This document shows, piece after piece, positions 47,348-55,468 of a DNA stretch of 64,000 bases. A model generated the notes under the pieces. The model did no database searches and had not been told where the DNA came from. It was given only the letters and a program-made list of their open reading frames with translations. Positions within the stretch are counted from its first letter, which is position 1, and each line of letters opens with the position of its first letter. The translations under genes and the position numbers were made by a program. This DNA comes from Isosphaeraceae bacterium (GTDB taxonomy: Bacteria > Planctomycetota > Planctomycetia > Isosphaerales > Isosphaeraceae), in the NCBI GenBank assembly GCA_025356475.1, contig JANXSX010000064.1, forward strand, positions 1-64,000, written 5' to 3'.

Positions 47348-47586
47348 GCCGGAAATTCCGCTCCATCGCCTTCGCCTTCGCGATGTTGACCCTCGTGGGG
47401 ACCTATGCCTCAGCCCAGGCAGTGAACCCCGCCCAGAAGGATGTTACCGACGGCTTCTTCGACATGCCCGTCAAAGACGATCCCGATGGTGGCAAGGGGA
47501 ATGCCGTTCCCGGCTACCTGATCACCTCGCTCCTGAGTGGAGTGGCCTTGTATGCTCTCTGCAAGTCGTCCCGCCGTGGGGCCTGA
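47344..47586 (+). CDS. Small exported/membrane protein
   Basis: 80 residues. A signal peptide ([20 protein letters not shown]) leads to a short Asp/Gly-rich loop ([15 protein letters not shown]) and a C-terminal membrane helix ([20 protein letters not shown]) with a basic end. The ATGA overlap with the nuclease-like gene shows coupling. No family is recognised, and no cysteine cluster or catalytic residue is seen. Confidence 0.65.
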
Positions 47587-47617
47587 TGGTTTCCCAGGAT
47601 TTGAGGCCCACGCTGCC

Positions 47618-48586
47618 ATGAAGGCTATCGACGAACGTTGGACCCGTGAGCAGATTGCGGCGCTATACCACTCGCCCGTGCTCGATCTGATCGGTCGAGC
47701 CGGCGAAGTGCATCGCCGCCATCACGACCCCAGCTCAGTTCAGGTCTGCGTCTTGCTCTCGGTGAAGACCGGCGGCTGCCCCGAGGATTGCGCGTATTGT
47801 CCCCAAGCCGCCAGGTATCAGACCGCCGTCGAGGCCGATCCCCTGATGGCCCTTGATGATGTGCTGGCCGCCGCCCGGAACGCCCGTGAGTCGGGGGCAA
47901 CCCGTTTTTGCATGGGGGCGGCCTGGCGAGAAGTCAAGGATAATAGCCAGTTTGATCGAGTTCTCGACATGGTCCGAGGTGTCAAGGATCTCGGTCTCGA
48001 AGCGTGCTGTACCTTGGGAATGCTCTCGGGGGCTCAAGCACGTCGCCTCAAAGATGCGGGGCTCGACGCCTACAACCACAACCTCGACACATCGCCTGAG
48101 TACTACGGCGAGGTGATCTCAACCCGTACTTATGACGATCGGCTTGAGACGCTCCAGCATGTCCGTGATGCCGGGATTACCGTCTGTTGTGGCGGAATCG
48201 TCGGACTCGGTGAGAGTGACGACGACCGGATCGGGATGCTCCACACGCTGGCCAACTTGCCCGAACCCCCCGAGAGCGTCCCGATCAATGCCCTGGTCGC
48301 CGTCGAAGGAACTCCACTTGCCGAGCGCCCTCCCGTGCCGATCTGGGACATGGTCCGCATGATCGCCACCGCGCGGCTTTTGATGCCCGATGCTATGGTT
48401 CGTCTCTCTGCCGGTCGCCTGAACATGACCGAGTCTGACCAAGCGCTCTGCTTCCTCGCAGGGGCAAACTCGATTTTTGCCGGTGATAAGCTCCTCACGA
48501 CCCCGAACCCTCAAGTCGATCAAGACGCTCGAATGTTCAAGACCCTTGGTCTCAAATCGATGCCGGCTGCCATCCCCGTCGGTTGA
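47618..48586 (+). CDS. bioB: Biotin synthase
   Basis: 322 residues from the ATG at 47618, giving [20 protein letters not shown]. The radical-SAM cluster motif is CPEDCAYC in [17 protein letters not shown], preceded by QVCVLLSVK. Further family features are [22 protein letters not shown] and [17 protein letters not shown]; Arg in RLSAGRLNM belongs to the auxiliary cluster site. It inserts sulfur into dethiobiotin. It is part of the same run and is followed by a ketoacyl synthase and bioF. No bioA or bioD is in the window. Confidence 0.95.
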
Positions 48587-48682
48587 GGGCTCGCGGGCCC
48601 GCTAACACCACGGCTGTGTTGATTGACGCTGCCCTCAGGCTTATCCCTCCCAGGTTGGGAGGGACCCACGACGGTCCTCACG

Positions 48683-49891
48683 ATGTGCTGTGAAAATGTG
48701 GATGTCGTTGTTTCAGGGATCGGATTAGTTACGGGGCTAGGCGCGACTCGGGAACAGACCTGGTCAGCCGTTCGGTTGGGGTCTTCTGGGATCAAGCTCC
48801 TTGTGCCTTCGGGAGACCTGGGAGCTGCCGGGCCAACGCTCGCTTGCCAGGCTGCCGCCCACCTGACTGGGCCTGATGTCGCCGAGCCGATTTTCGCACT
48901 CCTGGACGCGACCCTTGCTGAAGCACTCGCCGACGCAGGTGACCCCCTCCACGGAGTTGACTCCGACCGGGTCGGGGTCTTGATCGGCCTAAGCAAAGGC
49001 TGTGTTCGCAGTCTGGCGAAGGCCATTCCTACCCTTGATGGCCTGCGATTCTCCACGAGTTGGGCGAGCGCAGGCGCGAGTTATGTCTCGACCAAGGTCC
49101 AGGCAACCGGCCCGTGCTTGGCCCCTGTGGCGGCGTGTGCGACAGGTGTCGTCTCGGTGCTCCAAGGTGTCGAATTGATCCGTAGCAATGTCTGCGACGT
49201 GGTGATTGCTGGTAGTGTCGATGCCTCGCTCGAACCACTCATGCTTGCTGCGTTCCGCTCGCTCCGAGTTCTTGCACACGCCGACGATCCTCGCCAGGCC
49301 GTTCGTCCCTGGGATCGAGCCCGGTCGGGTTTCGTCGTCGGGGAGGGGGGGGCCGTCCTCATCCTTGAGCGCAGGGACAGGGCTCGATCTCGTGGTGCCA
49401 GGGCTTACGCAACAATCCTGGGTGGAGCCCTCGGCGGGGACGCTTACCACGTAACGGGGGTCAATCCTGACCCGACCAACCTCGCCAAGTTGATCGGAAG
49501 GGCCATCGGCTGTTCGCATATCGCGCCAACAGTAATCGATTATGTCAATGTGCATGGAACAGGAACTCGGGGGGGTGATCCAGTCGAGTGCCAAGCGATT
49601 CGCCAGGCTCTGGGTGCTCACGCGGACCACGTGAGTTGCTCGGCCAATAAGTCACAAATCGGACATTTGCTCGGAGCGGCCGGCTCGGCGGAGCTTGCCC
49701 TGACTTGCTTGGCCTTGCGCGATGGGTTTGTCCCTCCAACCCTAAATCTGACCGATCCTGACCCCTCGTGCGACCTCGACGGCACGCCGCTTGTGGGTCG
49801 GTCGCGAGAGATCCAGGTCGCTCTGAAGTTGTCGATCGGCTTCGGTGGGCATCTGGCCGCTGCGCTGCTCCGGAGGCTGGATCATGGCTGA
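48683..49891 (+). CDS. Beta-ketoacyl synthase (FabF/KAS-II type) inside the biotin genes
   Basis: 402 residues from the ATG at 48683; a TTG at 48623 would add 20. The Cys-His-His triad is complete: Cys in AACATGVVSVLQG, His in NVHGTGTRGGDPVE and His in KSQIGHLLGAAGSAE. The glycine-rich end FGGHLAAALLRR is the KAS C-terminal landmark. It elongates acyl chains by condensing malonyl-thioester onto an acyl group. The gene lies between bioB and bioF and overlaps bioF by 8 bases, so it may supply pimeloyl precursor. A general FabF that happens to sit here is the alternative. Confidence 0.88.
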   Translation: MCCENVDVVVSGIGLVTGLGATREQTWSAVRLGSSGIKLLVPSGDLGAAGPTLACQAAAHLTGPDVAEPIFALLDATLAEALADAGDPLHGVDSDRVGVLIGLSKGCVRSLAKAIPTLDGLRFSTSWASAGASYVSTKVQATGPCLAPVAACATGVVSVLQGVELIRSNVCDVVIAGSVDASLEPLMLAAFRSLRVLAHADDPRQAVRPWDRARSGFVVGEGGAVLILERRDRARSRGARAYATILGGALGGDAYHVTGVNPDPTNLAKLIGRAIGCSHIAPTVIDYVNVHGTGTRGGDPVECQAIRQALGAHADHVSCSANKSQIGHLLGAAGSAELALTCLALRDGFVPPTLNLTDPDPSCDLDGTPLVGRSREIQVALKLSIGFGGHLAAALLRRLDHG

Positions 49892-50999
49892 TCCTCTGTC
49901 CTGGATCGACGACGAATCCGCAGACTGGGCCTCGCGAGGCTTGGTGCGGACGCTTTCTGTCCTTGATCGGGGTTTGGTGAACTTCGCCTCGAACGACTAC
50001 CTCGGCTTGGCGGCAGACCCGCGTCTCCTCGAGGCTGCCTCGGCGGTGACGGCCTCGTTCGGGACCGGTGCCTCGCCTTTAGTCAGTGGCTGGACCGAGT
50101 ACCATCAGAGGCTCGTTGAGGACCTTGCTCGATTTGAGCAGACGGAGAGTGCTGTCCTCTTTTCCAGTGGGTATGCCGCCAATCTGGGAGCGATCTCAGC
50201 CGTGGTCGGCAAGGGCGACGCGGTCTATCTCGATCGGCTCAACCACGCCTGTCTGATCGACGGGGCCAAACTCTCGGGAGCCACTCTGCGTGTTTATCCC
50301 CACAACGATGCCGACCGACTCGAGCACGTCCTCAAGCGCGATCGAGGTCGATTCCGTCGATTGCTGATCGCCACGGACGGCGTCTTCAGTATGGATGGAG
50401 ACCTCGCTCCCCTGGCGGACCTGGTCAGCCTTGCCGATGACCACGACGCGATTCTGCTCGTCGACGAAGCGCACGGGACGGGCGTCTATGGACCCGATGG
50501 CCGAGGGGCAAGTTCCGTTTACGGGGTCGCGAACCGAATTCCTATCAAAGTCGGCACGCTTTCCAAAGCGATTGGCACCTTAGGCGGCTTCGTGGCAGGT
50601 TCGAACCGACTCTGCGATTGGCTTATCAACCGAGCCCGGCCGTTGATCTATTCCACTTCGCTCCCACTCCCCGTCGTAGCGGCGGCCTCACGAAGTCTCG
50701 CAATCATCCAGGACGAACCCTGGCGGCGAACTCGACTGCTTGAATTGTCGGCCCGGTTGAGAACGCGGTTAGGCATCGGATCAGAATCCTACGGGCCGAT
50801 TGTTCCCTGGATGGTCGGGTCATCGGAGGCGGCCATGGATCTATCGAGCCGACTCCGAGCCGAGGGCTTCCTCGTCCCGGCAATCCGCTCACCGACCGTG
50901 CCCAGTGGGACCGCACGGCTGAGGATCACGGTGACAGCGGCTCACACCGAAGGCCAGATCGACAAACTGAGCGCGATCCTGATTCGCGAATCCCGATAG
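49884..50999 (+). CDS. bioF: 8-amino-7-oxononanoate synthase (KAPA synthase)
   Basis: 371 residues from the ATG at 49884, with GGAGG seven bases upstream inside the ketoacyl synthase gene. A class II PLP enzyme of the alpha-oxoamine synthase family. Landmarks are NDYLGLAADPRLLEAA, GTGASPLVSGWTEYHQRLVE, DEAHGTGVYGPDGRG and the PLP lysine in GTLSKAIGTLGGF. It condenses pimeloyl-thioester with alanine to make KAPA, the first dedicated biotin-ring step. Coupled translation with the ketoacyl synthase suggests that the two act together. Confidence 0.93.
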   Translation: MADPLSWIDDESADWASRGLVRTLSVLDRGLVNFASNDYLGLAADPRLLEAASAVTASFGTGASPLVSGWTEYHQRLVEDLARFEQTESAVLFSSGYAANLGAISAVVGKGDAVYLDRLNHACLIDGAKLSGATLRVYPHNDADRLEHVLKRDRGRFRRLLIATDGVFSMDGDLAPLADLVSLADDHDAILLVDEAHGTGVYGPDGRGASSVYGVANRIPIKVGTLSKAIGTLGGFVAGSNRLCDWLINRARPLIYSTSLPLPVVAAASRSLAIIQDEPWRRTRLLELSARLRTRLGIGSESYGPIVPWMVGSSEAAMDLSSRLRAEGFLVPAIRSPTVPSGTARLRITVTAAHTEGQIDKLSAILIRESR

Positions 51000-52273: not shown

Positions 52274-53197
52274 ATGCTCAATCTTGGCTATTTCAAGGGT
52301 CAACCGACGGAGTATATCCTCAAGTATTCGGGGGGAAAGCTCGCCCGTGAGGGGCAGGGGCTCGCCTTCTATTACTTGCGGTTCAACACTCAGATTCTGG
52401 CTGTGCCTACGTCGAGCATGGACGCGAACTTTGTGTTTAATGAGGTGACACGGAACTTCCAGGCGGTCACAATTCAGGGCCAATTCACCTATCGGATCAA
52501 GAGCCCTCAGGAAGCCGCTAAGCTCCTGAACTTCACAATCGACCCACGAACCCATGTCTATCTCTCGAACGATCCCGACCGCCTGGCGCAGCGGATCACC
52601 AACGTAATCCAGATGGAAACGCGGGGCGAGTTGCAGAAACTCACGCTCGAAGAAGCACTCGGTTCGTTCGAGTCGATCGCGACCAAAGTGGAAAACAGCA
52701 TCAAGAGTGGCATACCTCTGAGCGCGCTCGGCGTTGAGCTGATCAGCATTTACTTCATTTCCGCCAAGCCAACTCCGGAAGTTGGCCAAGCACTGGAAGC
52801 CGAGTACCGTGAGACCTTGCTCCGCAAGGCGGATGAAGCGATTTATGCACGTCGGTCGGCTGCGGTCGAAGAAGAGGGGAAGATCAAGGAACGCGAGTTG
52901 AATTCGGAAATCACCCTGGAACAATCTCGACGGAAGCTGATCGATCTGAGAGGTGAGAATGAGTTGCTCGAAGCCGAGAATCGGGGCAAGGCCCAGGAGA
53001 TTGAGGATCGGCACCGGATCGATTCCAAGAAGCTCGAATTGGGGCTCTATGCGGGCCTAGAACCGAGGGCAGTCCTGGCTCTGGCTCTCAACGAGATGGG
53101 GGTCCACTCGGAGAAGATTGGCAATCTGACGATCACCTCCGAACTGCTCGCTTCGCTAATGAATGGGCCTGGTGTTTCCCGATCTGGTGAGGTCTGA
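52274..53197 (+). CDS. SPFH/Band 7-domain protein
   Basis: 307 residues. The β-rich SPFH core covers about residues 15-190 (AVPTSSMDANFVFNEVTRNF, QFTYRIKSPQEAAKLLNF, ALGVELISIYFISAKPTPEV). A long charged coiled coil follows (AEYRETLLRKADEAIYARRS, EEEGKIKERELNSEITLEQS). There is no N-terminal membrane helix, so association with membrane would be peripheral. SPFH proteins build ring-shaped scaffolds. The stop lies one base before the start of the NAD-kinase-like gene, within its ribosome-binding context GAGG. Confidence 0.88.
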   Translation: MLNLGYFKGQPTEYILKYSGGKLAREGQGLAFYYLRFNTQILAVPTSSMDANFVFNEVTRNFQAVTIQGQFTYRIKSPQEAAKLLNFTIDPRTHVYLSNDPDRLAQRITNVIQMETRGELQKLTLEEALGSFESIATKVENSIKSGIPLSALGVELISIYFISAKPTPEVGQALEAEYRETLLRKADEAIYARRSAAVEEEGKIKERELNSEITLEQSRRKLIDLRGENELLEAENRGKAQEIEDRHRIDSKKLELGLYAGLEPRAVLALALNEMGVHSEKIGNLTITSELLASLMNGPGVSRSGEV

Positions 53198-53198
53198 G

Positions 53199-54185
53199 AT
53201 GCCAGGCCTCGACAAGATCGTGGTCATCACCAAGAAGTCAGCGCTCGAAGAATTGATCGAGCGGTTCAATACGCGCGACCAGGCTCGATTCTATATCGAG
53301 CATATGGGAGGCTCTTTCGAGTGGTACGAGTCCGCCCACCAGGCCTATGTCAACGCGGTCGCAACCCTCCGAAAAGCGATGCCTCGTGAGGTCCGTTCTC
53401 ACTGGATCGAGCGTTCGTTCTTGCCGACCTTCACGTTCGGACCTAACGATTTGATCGTTACGCTCGGCCCCGACGGCCTAGTCGTGAACACCGCGAAGTA
53501 TCTACAAGAGCAGCCGTTGCTGGCCTTCAACCCGGATCCAGAACGTATCGACGGCGTTCTGAGCGCGTTCCCGCTCGATGGAAGCGCCTCGACTTTGCTC
53601 GCAGCTTTGTCTTTCCAGATCTTGATCCGACCGATTACGATGGCGCAGGCGACCCTCAATGACGGGCGGTCAATTCTTGCCGTCAATGATCTGTTCATCG
53701 GGCAAAAGACACATGTCTCGGCTCGGTACGTTCTCTCGCATGCACAACGAGAGGAAACCCAATCGTCAAGCGGAATCATCGTTTCGACTGGTGCAGGATC
53801 CACAGGCTGGTATCGGTCGATTCTTGCGGGGGCAGTCGGCGTCGTGCGGAGTGTCTTAAACGACGCGTCAATCGACCGAGCTCGATCGCGTTATCAGTTC
53901 GATCCTGAGTCCGAGCGCTTGATCTTCAATGTGCGGGAGCCGTTCGTCAGCCGGACTACTACTGCCGATGTTGTCCATGGAGAGATTACGCCCGAGACTC
54001 CTCTCGTACTGACCTCTCAGATGCCGCGTAACGGTGTCATCTTCAGTGACGGGGTCGAGGAAGATTATCTCCCCTTCAACAGTGGCTCGATCGCGAATAT
54101 CGGCATCGCCCAGCGCAAGTTGATGCTCATCAGCGGGCTGCCTCAATCCCAACCTACCCCCGAGCATCTGGTAGAGCGTCGGTGA
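53199..54185 (+). CDS. NAD-kinase-like protein
   Basis: 328 residues from the ATG at 53199 with GAGG six bases upstream. The ATP-NAD kinase fold is seen as LIVTLGPDGLVVNTAKYL, where LGPDG replaces the usual GGDG, then LLAFNPDPERIDGVL, AVNDLFIG (NE/D motif) and SSGIIVSTGAGSTGW. The long N-terminal helix EELIERFNTRDQARFYIEHM and the C-terminal part fit the PpnK-like family. The changed first motif may lower or alter activity. A distant diacylglycerol-kinase-type lipid kinase is the alternative. Coupled to SPFH upstream and to the zinc-ribbon gene by GTGA. Confidence 0.78.
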   Translation: MPGLDKIVVITKKSALEELIERFNTRDQARFYIEHMGGSFEWYESAHQAYVNAVATLRKAMPREVRSHWIERSFLPTFTFGPNDLIVTLGPDGLVVNTAKYLQEQPLLAFNPDPERIDGVLSAFPLDGSASTLLAALSFQILIRPITMAQATLNDGRSILAVNDLFIGQKTHVSARYVLSHAQREETQSSSGIIVSTGAGSTGWYRSILAGAVGVVRSVLNDASIDRARSRYQFDPESERLIFNVREPFVSRTTTADVVHGEITPETPLVLTSQMPRNGVIFSDGVEEDYLPFNSGSIANIGIAQRKLMLISGLPQSQPTPEHLVERR

Positions 54186-55468
54186 CCTGTTGGGCGATCG
54201 GTTCTGATCGAATGTGTCGATTCCAGGTTGCTTTGCATGAAAATATGAAGGGATTACACGTGTTAGCATGGTTGTCAAAGCAAAAAGTCATCTTTACATG
54301 CCAAGGGTGTCAGCAAAAGCTGCGAGCCCCTGTTTCCACGCTGGGTCGAAAAGCGATTTGCCCACGGTGCGGGGGTCGGCTCTTCGTTCCCATCCTGAGC
54401 ATCATTCAGTCGTTGAGGACCGCAATTACATCGCTGCCGGCTGCGGCTCGGACGCAGAGTCAGACTGGGGTTGGCATGAGTCGTCGTGGGTTGGCGCGAC
54501 TGATGTCGAACAAGGCCGCGACTGGTGCGGCGAGCTTGTTCGTCTTTGGGGCTGCCTATCAGTACTATCGGACGAAACGCGGTATGACCTGGTTCCCCGA
54601 CCCAAGAATTAACACGCCGATCCACAATTTTCGACCGTTCCCACCCGATAATCCCTGGAATCAGGTCGTGGCGGATGCACCGCTCGACCCACTCTCTGAA
54701 GTCATCATGAATTCGATCGGTCGTGACAAGCCCCTGCACCCCGACATCGGCTGGGGTTGGAGATATGGACCGACAGGTTACATCTACATGACTGTTGGTA
54801 ACGATGATCCGCTGATGCAGGTCGTCACAGAAGCATATAGTTATGAAAGTGACCCCGGACCCTATCGGATCCCCTTGGATGCACCGATCGAAGGAGGACC
54901 GAATGGCACCGGCGACCGCCATGTGATTGTGGTCGACACCGATAACTGGATGCTTTACGAGCTATTTAATGCGCGAATCAAAAATGAGACCTGGCATGCC
55001 GACAGCGGAGCGATTTTCGACCTTAAAGTGAACAGTACGCGTACTGCCGGTTGGGGATCTGCCGATGCTGCGGGCTTGCCGATCTTTCCCGGACTGGTTC
55101 GTTATGAAGAAGTTCACGAAGCGAAGGTCATTCCTCACGCCCTTCGATTCACGGTCAAACGTTCACGAAGAGCTTATGTCCCGCCCGCAAGCCAATTCGC
55201 GAGTCCCCATAAGGATGTGACACTCCCACTGATGGGGATGCGGGTCCGGCTCCGAGAATCGTTTGAGATGTCGAAATTTTCCGAGCCGATGCAGGTGATT
55301 CTCACCTGTTTGAAGCAGTATGGAATGCTGCTTGCCGACAATGGTGGAGATATGTTTCTGAACGGAGCATATCATGAGGACTGGAGTATGTCAGACTTGA
55401 AGACGCTCAAGAACGTCAAGGCTCGTGACTTTGAGGTGATCCGTATGGACGGACTGGTGCCGGGCTAG
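54182..55468 (+). CDS. Zinc-ribbon protein with an unnamed C-terminal domain
   Basis: 428 residues from the GTG at 54182, overlapping the preceding stop by 4 bases; an ATG at 54245 would remove 21 residues. CQGCQQKLRAPVSTLGRKAI followed by CPRCGG forms a four-cysteine zinc ribbon near residues 40-65. A weakly hydrophobic stretch (AATGAASLFVFGAAYQYY) follows. The rest carries NPWNQVVADAPLDPLSEVIM, NSIGRDKPLHPDIGWGW, GDRHVIVVDTDNWMLYELFN and PHALRFTVKRSRRAYV. I know similar sequence from bacterial hypothetical/secreted proteins, but not a named fold. Third gene of the trio. Confidence 0.65.
   Translation: MTCWAIGSDRMCRFQVALHENMKGLHVLAWLSKQKVIFTCQGCQQKLRAPVSTLGRKAICPRCGGRLFVPILSIIQSLRTAITSLPAAARTQSQTGVGMSRRGLARLMSNKAATGAASLFVFGAAYQYYRTKRGMTWFPDPRINTPIHNFRPFPPDNPWNQVVADAPLDPLSEVIMNSIGRDKPLHPDIGWGWRYGPTGYIYMTVGNDDPLMQVVTEAYSYESDPGPYRIPLDAPIEGGPNGTGDRHVIVVDTDNWMLYELFNARIKNETWHADSGAIFDLKVNSTRTAGWGSADAAGLPIFPGLVRYEEVHEAKVIPHALRFTVKRSRRAYVPPASQFASPHKDVTLPLMGMRVRLRESFEMSKFSEPMQVILTCLKQYGMLLADNGGDMFLNGAYHEDWSMSDLKTLKNVKARDFEVIRMDGLVPG

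Follow-up and report, generated by a model that had tools for sequence, protein, structure and literature searches.

As described in part of one account (PMC8553519), nicotinamide adenine dinucleotide (NAD) kinases all carry three motifs, GGDG, NE/D and region II, whose residues are vital; the Asp of GGDG accepts the proton of the NAD 2'-hydroxyl, the residue following GGDG tracks the phosphate donor, and GGDGM occurs in certain NAD kinases that are described as active. A portion of a second paper (PMC6675116) states that it is uncertain where the eukaryotic NAD kinase clades came from and that they have no consistent prokaryotic sister clade. For SPFH proteins, Hinderhofer 2009 (PMC2636767) describes two subfamilies, SPFH8 and SPFH9, without transmembrane segments, and names NfeD and FtsH as partners. 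Here we describe a locus at which genes of these two kinds stand together. It lies in a stretch of 64,000 nucleotides (the window; positions 1 to 64,000 of contig JANXSX010000064.1, assembly GCA_025356475.1) from an Isosphaeraceae bacterium, a planctomycete, and consists of an SPFH gene directly followed by a gene for a kinase-like protein that resembles human mitochondrial NADK2.

The words kinase, Nudix and NAD are absent from the main text of Hinderhofer 2009 (PMC2636767), and NAD and Nudix from that of a 2026 paper on Pseudomonas aeruginosa SPFH proteins (PMC13086221). Searches of the open-licence literature returned no paper joining SPFH, NAD kinase and operon, nothing pointing to an SPFH-kinase pair among the matches listed and, for NADK2 with prohibitin or STOML2, no NADK2 among the matches listed. 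An initial annotation of the window had proposed that the two genes and a third, encoding a zinc-ribbon protein, are made together and that their products could form a membrane or stress complex.

A conserved pair of SPFH and NADK2-like genes

The kinase gene opens at ATG 53199, one base past the SPFH stop codon as initially annotated, and a GGTGAGG stretch precedes the ATG. The best relatives of the window were found in Planctomycetota and Isosphaeraceae records, plus one labelled Abditibacteriaceae. A pattern scan for the kinase over 84,980 bacterial and archaeal species genomes, which favours nearer relatives, yielded 61 confirmed loci, and a search of 59 relatives (own genome included) yielded 12 kinase matches, one of them weak. 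With the locus of a canonical NAD kinase (L001) these made a set of 74 loci, and in 69 of them an SPFH gene was located upstream of the kinase on the same strand. Removal of three duplicates and of three loci whose kinase escaped profile detection (L001, L013 and L074) left 68 loci. SPFH was present in 66 of these, on the same strand each time (66/66), and it came first in all 69 pairs when the three duplicates were counted in. Measured on the longest open reading frames (ORFs), the gap between the two genes was 50 bases or less in 57 of the 66 pairs.

Two further comparisons gave the same picture. Of the 59 relatives, precisely those 11 genomes that gave a strong kinase match also contained the SPFH subfamily (E ≤ 1e-20), and the SPFH and kinase trees were correlated (r = 0.72 for 56 pairs, with a highest value of 0.18 in 999 permutations). 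In a later survey, a profile built from 36 kinases was searched against 294 genomes of the window's own phylum and 99 genomes of the phylum of a Heimdallarchaeota metagenome-assembled genome (MAG), giving 22 and 5 matches, respectively, one of the latter a 40-residue fragment. SPFH was again upstream and on the same strand at 24/24 full-length kinase loci with DNA returned; 16 kinases were additions to the earlier set and 8 repeated it (L092 being L016), and two planctomycete matches came without a locus.

The pairing is not uniform, and two observations count against it. Nine of the 66 pairs had wider gaps, with a maximum of 1421 bases, and one locus in a Thiomargarita-labelled MAG (L035) had no SPFH match and a VWA protein directly upstream. 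The other locus without SPFH (L052) is on a contig that starts just ahead of the kinase. An alternative is that the genes are linked by chance or as housekeeping neighbours, with no joint role for the two proteins, and the zinc-ribbon gene of the window is indeed such a neighbour. Order and strand were nevertheless constant across many phyla, both genes co-occurred in the same 11 of 59 relatives and their trees were correlated, all of which argue against chance linkage, and we consider it most improbable. The SPFH and NADK2-like kinase genes are a real two-gene pair.

Two side observations concern individual loci. At L035:5009-5974 the VWA-domain protein occupies the usual SPFH position ahead of the NADK2-like gene. 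In Clostridium ljungdahlii (L028:5983-6921) and a Clostridiaceae MAG (L046:1493-2431) the NADK2-like gene is in two ORFs, either through a true break or through sequencing error.

The pair was found in Planctomycetota, Heimdallarchaeota, Clostridia, Proteobacteria and others, with taxon names taken from the titles given by MAG submitters and binning errors possible. A kinase tree made by a quick method without an outgroup grouped Heimdallarchaeota with planctomycetes and mixed Proteobacteria, Thermodesulfobacteriota, Spirochaetota and Bacillota. Within phyla the family was patchy (22 of the 294 own-phylum genomes; full-length in 4 of the 99 genomes of the Heimdallarchaeota phylum), and 72 plasmid-collection records carried it, 42 of them from Rhizobium. 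No family match was seen in phage records or viral contigs, and a distant blastn search with 1940 bases returned no Escherichia coli carriers of the Providencia pair. The simplest reading is horizontal transfer as a unit, in which a two-gene cassette would pass between lineages. On a Moraxella plasmid (L076:8927-10841) and on pAST2 (L079:7693-9610), the kinase gene of the cassette adjoins tetR-tet(H), and the gene ahead of the kinase is annotated in the record of pAST2 as a shorter hypothetical protein.

Patchy spread in the planctomycete phylum and the plasmid records would also suit an anti-phage or mobile-element defence pair that alters NAD pools. Neither SPFH nor the kinase had a PADLOC match, however (an NrtR relative had one weak match, E 8e-4), there was no PHROGs match, the phage and viral collections gave no match to the family, and the recognisable recurring neighbours are NAD-metabolism genes. 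A defence role is thus very unlikely.

The kinase-like protein and its SPFH partner

Both the single sequence and a profile ranked human mitochondrial NADK2 first among solved proteins. The profile matched NADK2 with E 3.7e-17 and 65 bits, compared with 21 bits for the best canonical NAD kinase. An AlphaFold2 (AF2) model of the window protein, with a mean predicted local distance difference test (pLDDT) score of 90.2, was compared with solved structures by VIA-align, and Foldseek was also run. The model aligned with NADK2 (7r4l) at Z 28.5 over 297 residues, with a root-mean-square deviation of 2.6, and with other NAD kinases at Z 20-23, the best bacterial enzyme being that of P. aeruginosa (22.7). 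In this predicted model the NAD kinase fold spans the full chain.

The likeness to NADK2 (PDB 7r4j-7r4m and 7n29) extends to short stretches of sequence. NADK2 and this family have SSG where the aligned canonical enzymes have SDG or ADG, and both have a Trp after the GS stretch that the aligned canonical enzymes do not; a REP stretch also aligns, and the canonical alignments shown stop short of it. Identity is nevertheless 20%, NADK2 has GGDGT and this family G[QRP]DG[LM], and about 75 residues separate two matched stretches in NADK2, as opposed to about 35 in the family's profile. A further difference is the SPFH partner gene of this family. Canonical bacterial NadK (PF01513; 7qvs, 2an1 and 1yt5) has the same fold and, like the family, a catalytic Asp and an NE/D-type motif, but its Pfam model misses most family members and it is encoded by a separate gene in this genome.

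The initial annotation had noted LGPDG in place of GGDG, together with NxD and GAGSTGW elements, and all three are present. LGPDG is at residues 89-93, and the profile alignment places its GPDG over the GGDG loop of NAD kinases with solved structures. Across 66 aligned rows the loop read GQDG in 39, GRDG in 19, GPDG in 6, and GLDG and GQDR in one each, followed by Leu in 63 rows and Met in 3. G90, D92, N163 and D164 were invariant in all 66 rows, and D92, N163 and D164 were invariant with 39 further positions in 36 aligned members. Judged by this alignment, the altered loop is a hallmark of the family, not an oddity of the window protein, and the family keeps the proton-taking Asp and loses the second glycine.

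Several of these results tell against an active NAD kinase. The Pfam NAD_kinase model PF01513 matched 2 of 36 members at E < 0.01, weakly, with a best value of 0.00072. The window protein itself had no Pfam match, falling short of the PF01513 cut-off, and the NCBIfam NAD kinase models matched it far under theirs. In addition, the second Gly was replaced throughout (66/66 rows) by Gln, Arg, Pro or, once, Leu, and because GGDG is described as a motif of all NAD kinases, its loss could alter or abolish activity.

The protein might therefore be a pseudo-kinase, which would bind NAD(P) and sense cofactor state for an SPFH assembly but make no NADP. The missing glycine, the Leu or Met that follows the loop in every row and the usual presence of a canonical NAD kinase in the same genomes (see below) are in keeping with this. 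A mere binder, on the other hand, need not keep a catalytic Asp, yet D92 is among the residues invariant in the 36 members, and GGDGM is known from NAD kinases that the relevant part of PMC8553519 reports as active. We regard the pseudo-kinase as doubtful. A changed phosphate loop could also indicate an active kinase with a different phosphate donor, or with a different acceptor such as a product of NAD breakdown or salvage, and in a few loci the salvage genes PncA, PnuC, NadR-like and NadE lie beside the pair. The closest structure, aligned over 297 residues, is nevertheless that of an NAD kinase, and the family retains the NE/D-type and STGxGS/A motifs; a changed acceptor or donor seems rather unlikely.

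The window's genome encodes a canonical NAD kinase with GGDG separately, on contig C147, and the possibility that the kinase-like protein is the only NAD kinase of the genome was rejected for this reason. It is therefore not a lone housekeeping NAD kinase placed by chance. The same pattern was seen more widely in 33 pair-carrying genomes, which represent 33 of the 61 scan loci. PF01513 had a match at E ≤ 0.001 in 32 of them and over the cut-off in 30, although a few of the 30 are weak matches that may belong to other kinases, some scoring below 31 bits, and MAG incompleteness may account for the three genomes without one. Therefore, the NADK2-like protein is usually additional to a canonical NAD kinase. 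Because synteny crosses phyla and a separate canonical enzyme exists, the initial reading of an SPFH gene coupled to one for a nucleotide-kinase-like enzyme holds.

The SPFH protein was recognised by Pfam Band_7 (PF01145; E 2.9e-19, 70.2 bits, cut-off 23.6), in agreement with its initial naming. Its model (mean pLDDT 87.4) consists of a beta-rich SPFH domain and a helix at residues 168-260 (about 90 residues), and the best Foldseek folds were HflK/C, stomatin, erlin and prohibitin, members of a superfamily with which it shares the domain and the long helix. Simple hydropathy gave no N-terminal membrane segment: hydropathy of the window protein is highest at residue 146, and values above 1.6 occurred in 8 of 63 SPFH members, with the peak of each of the eight at residue 144 or later. 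This gives no support to the membrane complex as it had been suggested, and in lacking an N-terminal transmembrane segment the protein resembles the soluble SPFH8 and SPFH9 subfamilies, as these are described in part of PMC2636767. From the model, the protein may oligomerise into a ring or cage by way of its long helix.

Genes around the pair

NrtR is a Nudix-type regulator of NAD metabolism that responds to ADP-ribose. An NrtR-type gene was a recurrent third partner of the pair, found by clustering at 24 of 65 loci and at 18 of the 40 with enough flank; NrtR_WHD and NUDIX domains were over their cut-offs in 6/6 such genes scanned. On annotated plasmids from Methylomonas, Moraxella, Providencia and Rhizobium, the NUDIX gene is divergent to SPFH. 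An Omnitrophota locus (L036:2-4783) carries NrtR, PncA (nicotinamidase), SPFH, the kinase, PnuC and a NadR-like gene in a row, the NadR-like match being under the curated cut-off. A Ruminococcus locus (L059) carries NrtR and NadE after the kinase, and from the neighbour tally an Isochorismatase-type gene probably lies between them. Isochorismatase was the commonest Pfam family among the 94 other neighbours (of 248 listed), with 4 of the 94. Large upstream ORFs in Clostridia and others were considered as NAD synthetases and rejected: some were methyltransferase-like, others were tRNA synthetase or WD40, and the rest had no match. Unnamed NrtR targets in Proteobacteria may be listed in Rodionov 2008 or RegPrecise.

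Sites resembling GTGTC-N5-GACAC (two mismatches at most) occurred ahead of SPFH at three gammaproteobacterial loci, with 2 at L075, 3 at L076 and 4 at L077. None of 500 shuffles reached the count at any of the three, with the motif having been picked by eye from these same loci, which lessens the weight of the result. Other findings also detract from a general NrtR link. The motif was absent from the Rhizobium locus (L078), so that three of the four divergent loci have repeats; NrtR was not found at 22 of the 40 well-flanked loci; most other neighbours were unrelated to NAD; and NrtR_WHD had no match in the window's own genome, which thereby differs from the described NrtR regulons. Ahead of the window's SPFH gene, the operator scan gave one 16-base near-palindrome whose meaning is not evident.

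The third gene of the window was initially placed in a trio with the pair. This was rejected, because conservation of the pair does not extend to the zinc-ribbon gene, which relatives have elsewhere. In two other pair carriers (G017 and G023), relatives of its main domain lie on a different contig or at a distance of megabases, and contig C163 of the window's genome holds a second copy. Synteny beyond the genus consequently holds for the pair, which extends across phyla into Heimdallarchaeota, and fails for the zinc-ribbon gene, which is a bystander and a local neighbour only.

The reported 4-base overlap of this gene with the kinase gene is available if the ORF opens at GTG 54182. By eye, GTG 54260 is the likelier start, with GAAGGG seven bases upstream; it leaves 74 bases after the kinase stop, and relatives' zinc-ribbon matches begin at residues 3-12 of this form. 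The overlap is probably a start-codon artefact. The features are listed in Table 1.

Table 1. Genes of the SPFH-kinase locus and the adjoining gene in the window
Feature	Position	Strand	Basis
SPFH/Band 7 protein, 307 aa	52274..53197	+	Pfam Band_7, predicted model, Foldseek, hydropathy
NADK2-like kinase, 328 aa; G-P-D-G loop 90-93, N163-D164, STGAGSTGW 196-204	53199..54185	+	profile, AF2 model, VIA-align
Zinc-ribbon protein, neighbour only, outside the conserved cassette	54260..55468 (GTG 54182 start also possible)	+	of 74 loci, the window's own is the one where it adjoins the pair

The product of the zinc-ribbon gene belongs to a planctomycete family; the window copy has a zinc ribbon at its N-terminus that the best-matching relatives lack. 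The best matches begin no earlier than residue 112 of 402 and thus miss the ribbon; the ribbon by itself gave short matches in other proteins, and the main domain had no Pfam match. Upstream of the pair (47537-50999), three translated ORFs resemble, by eye, BioB, a ketoacyl synthase and an 8-amino-7-oxononanoate synthase (AONS)/BioF-type enzyme, and may be a biotin cluster.

Proposed role of the pair

We consider it moderately likely that the pair is a cofactor-control module, in which an accessory NADK2-like enzyme on a soluble SPFH oligomer tunes the NAD/NADP balance. The long helix of the SPFH protein would mediate its assembly into a ring or cage, on which an NADK2-type NAD(H) kinase with the loop GxDG (x being Gln, Arg or Pro) would dock through a predicted contact. 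The complex would then add a regulated conversion of NAD to NADP, accessory to that of the housekeeping NAD kinase; its activity, phosphate donor and acceptor are presumptive, and it may respond to NAD turnover. NrtR would control the pair in many lineages. Control in this planctomycete must differ, because no NrtR was found in its genome.

A bolder proposal, quite unlikely in our estimation, is that a soluble SPFH cage with an NADK2-type kinase and a rebuilt phosphate loop is a prokaryotic NAD/NADP control compartment, in bacteria and in Heimdallarchaeota. It may bear on mitochondria, which hold both NADK2 and SPFH scaffolds, and on the origin of NADK2, since the kinase resembles that enzyme above other solved NAD kinases and the prokaryotic origin of NADK2 has been described as uncertain. 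With a prokaryotic NADK2-like family, it becomes possible to test where the eukaryotic NAD kinase clades came from.

If the accessory-kinase model is true, bacteria would gain a second, regulated NAD kinase of mitochondrial type, and one group of unstudied soluble SPFH proteins would gain a concrete biochemical partner. The family would also be a natural experiment on the second Gly of GGDG, showing whether catalysis or donor choice depends on it.

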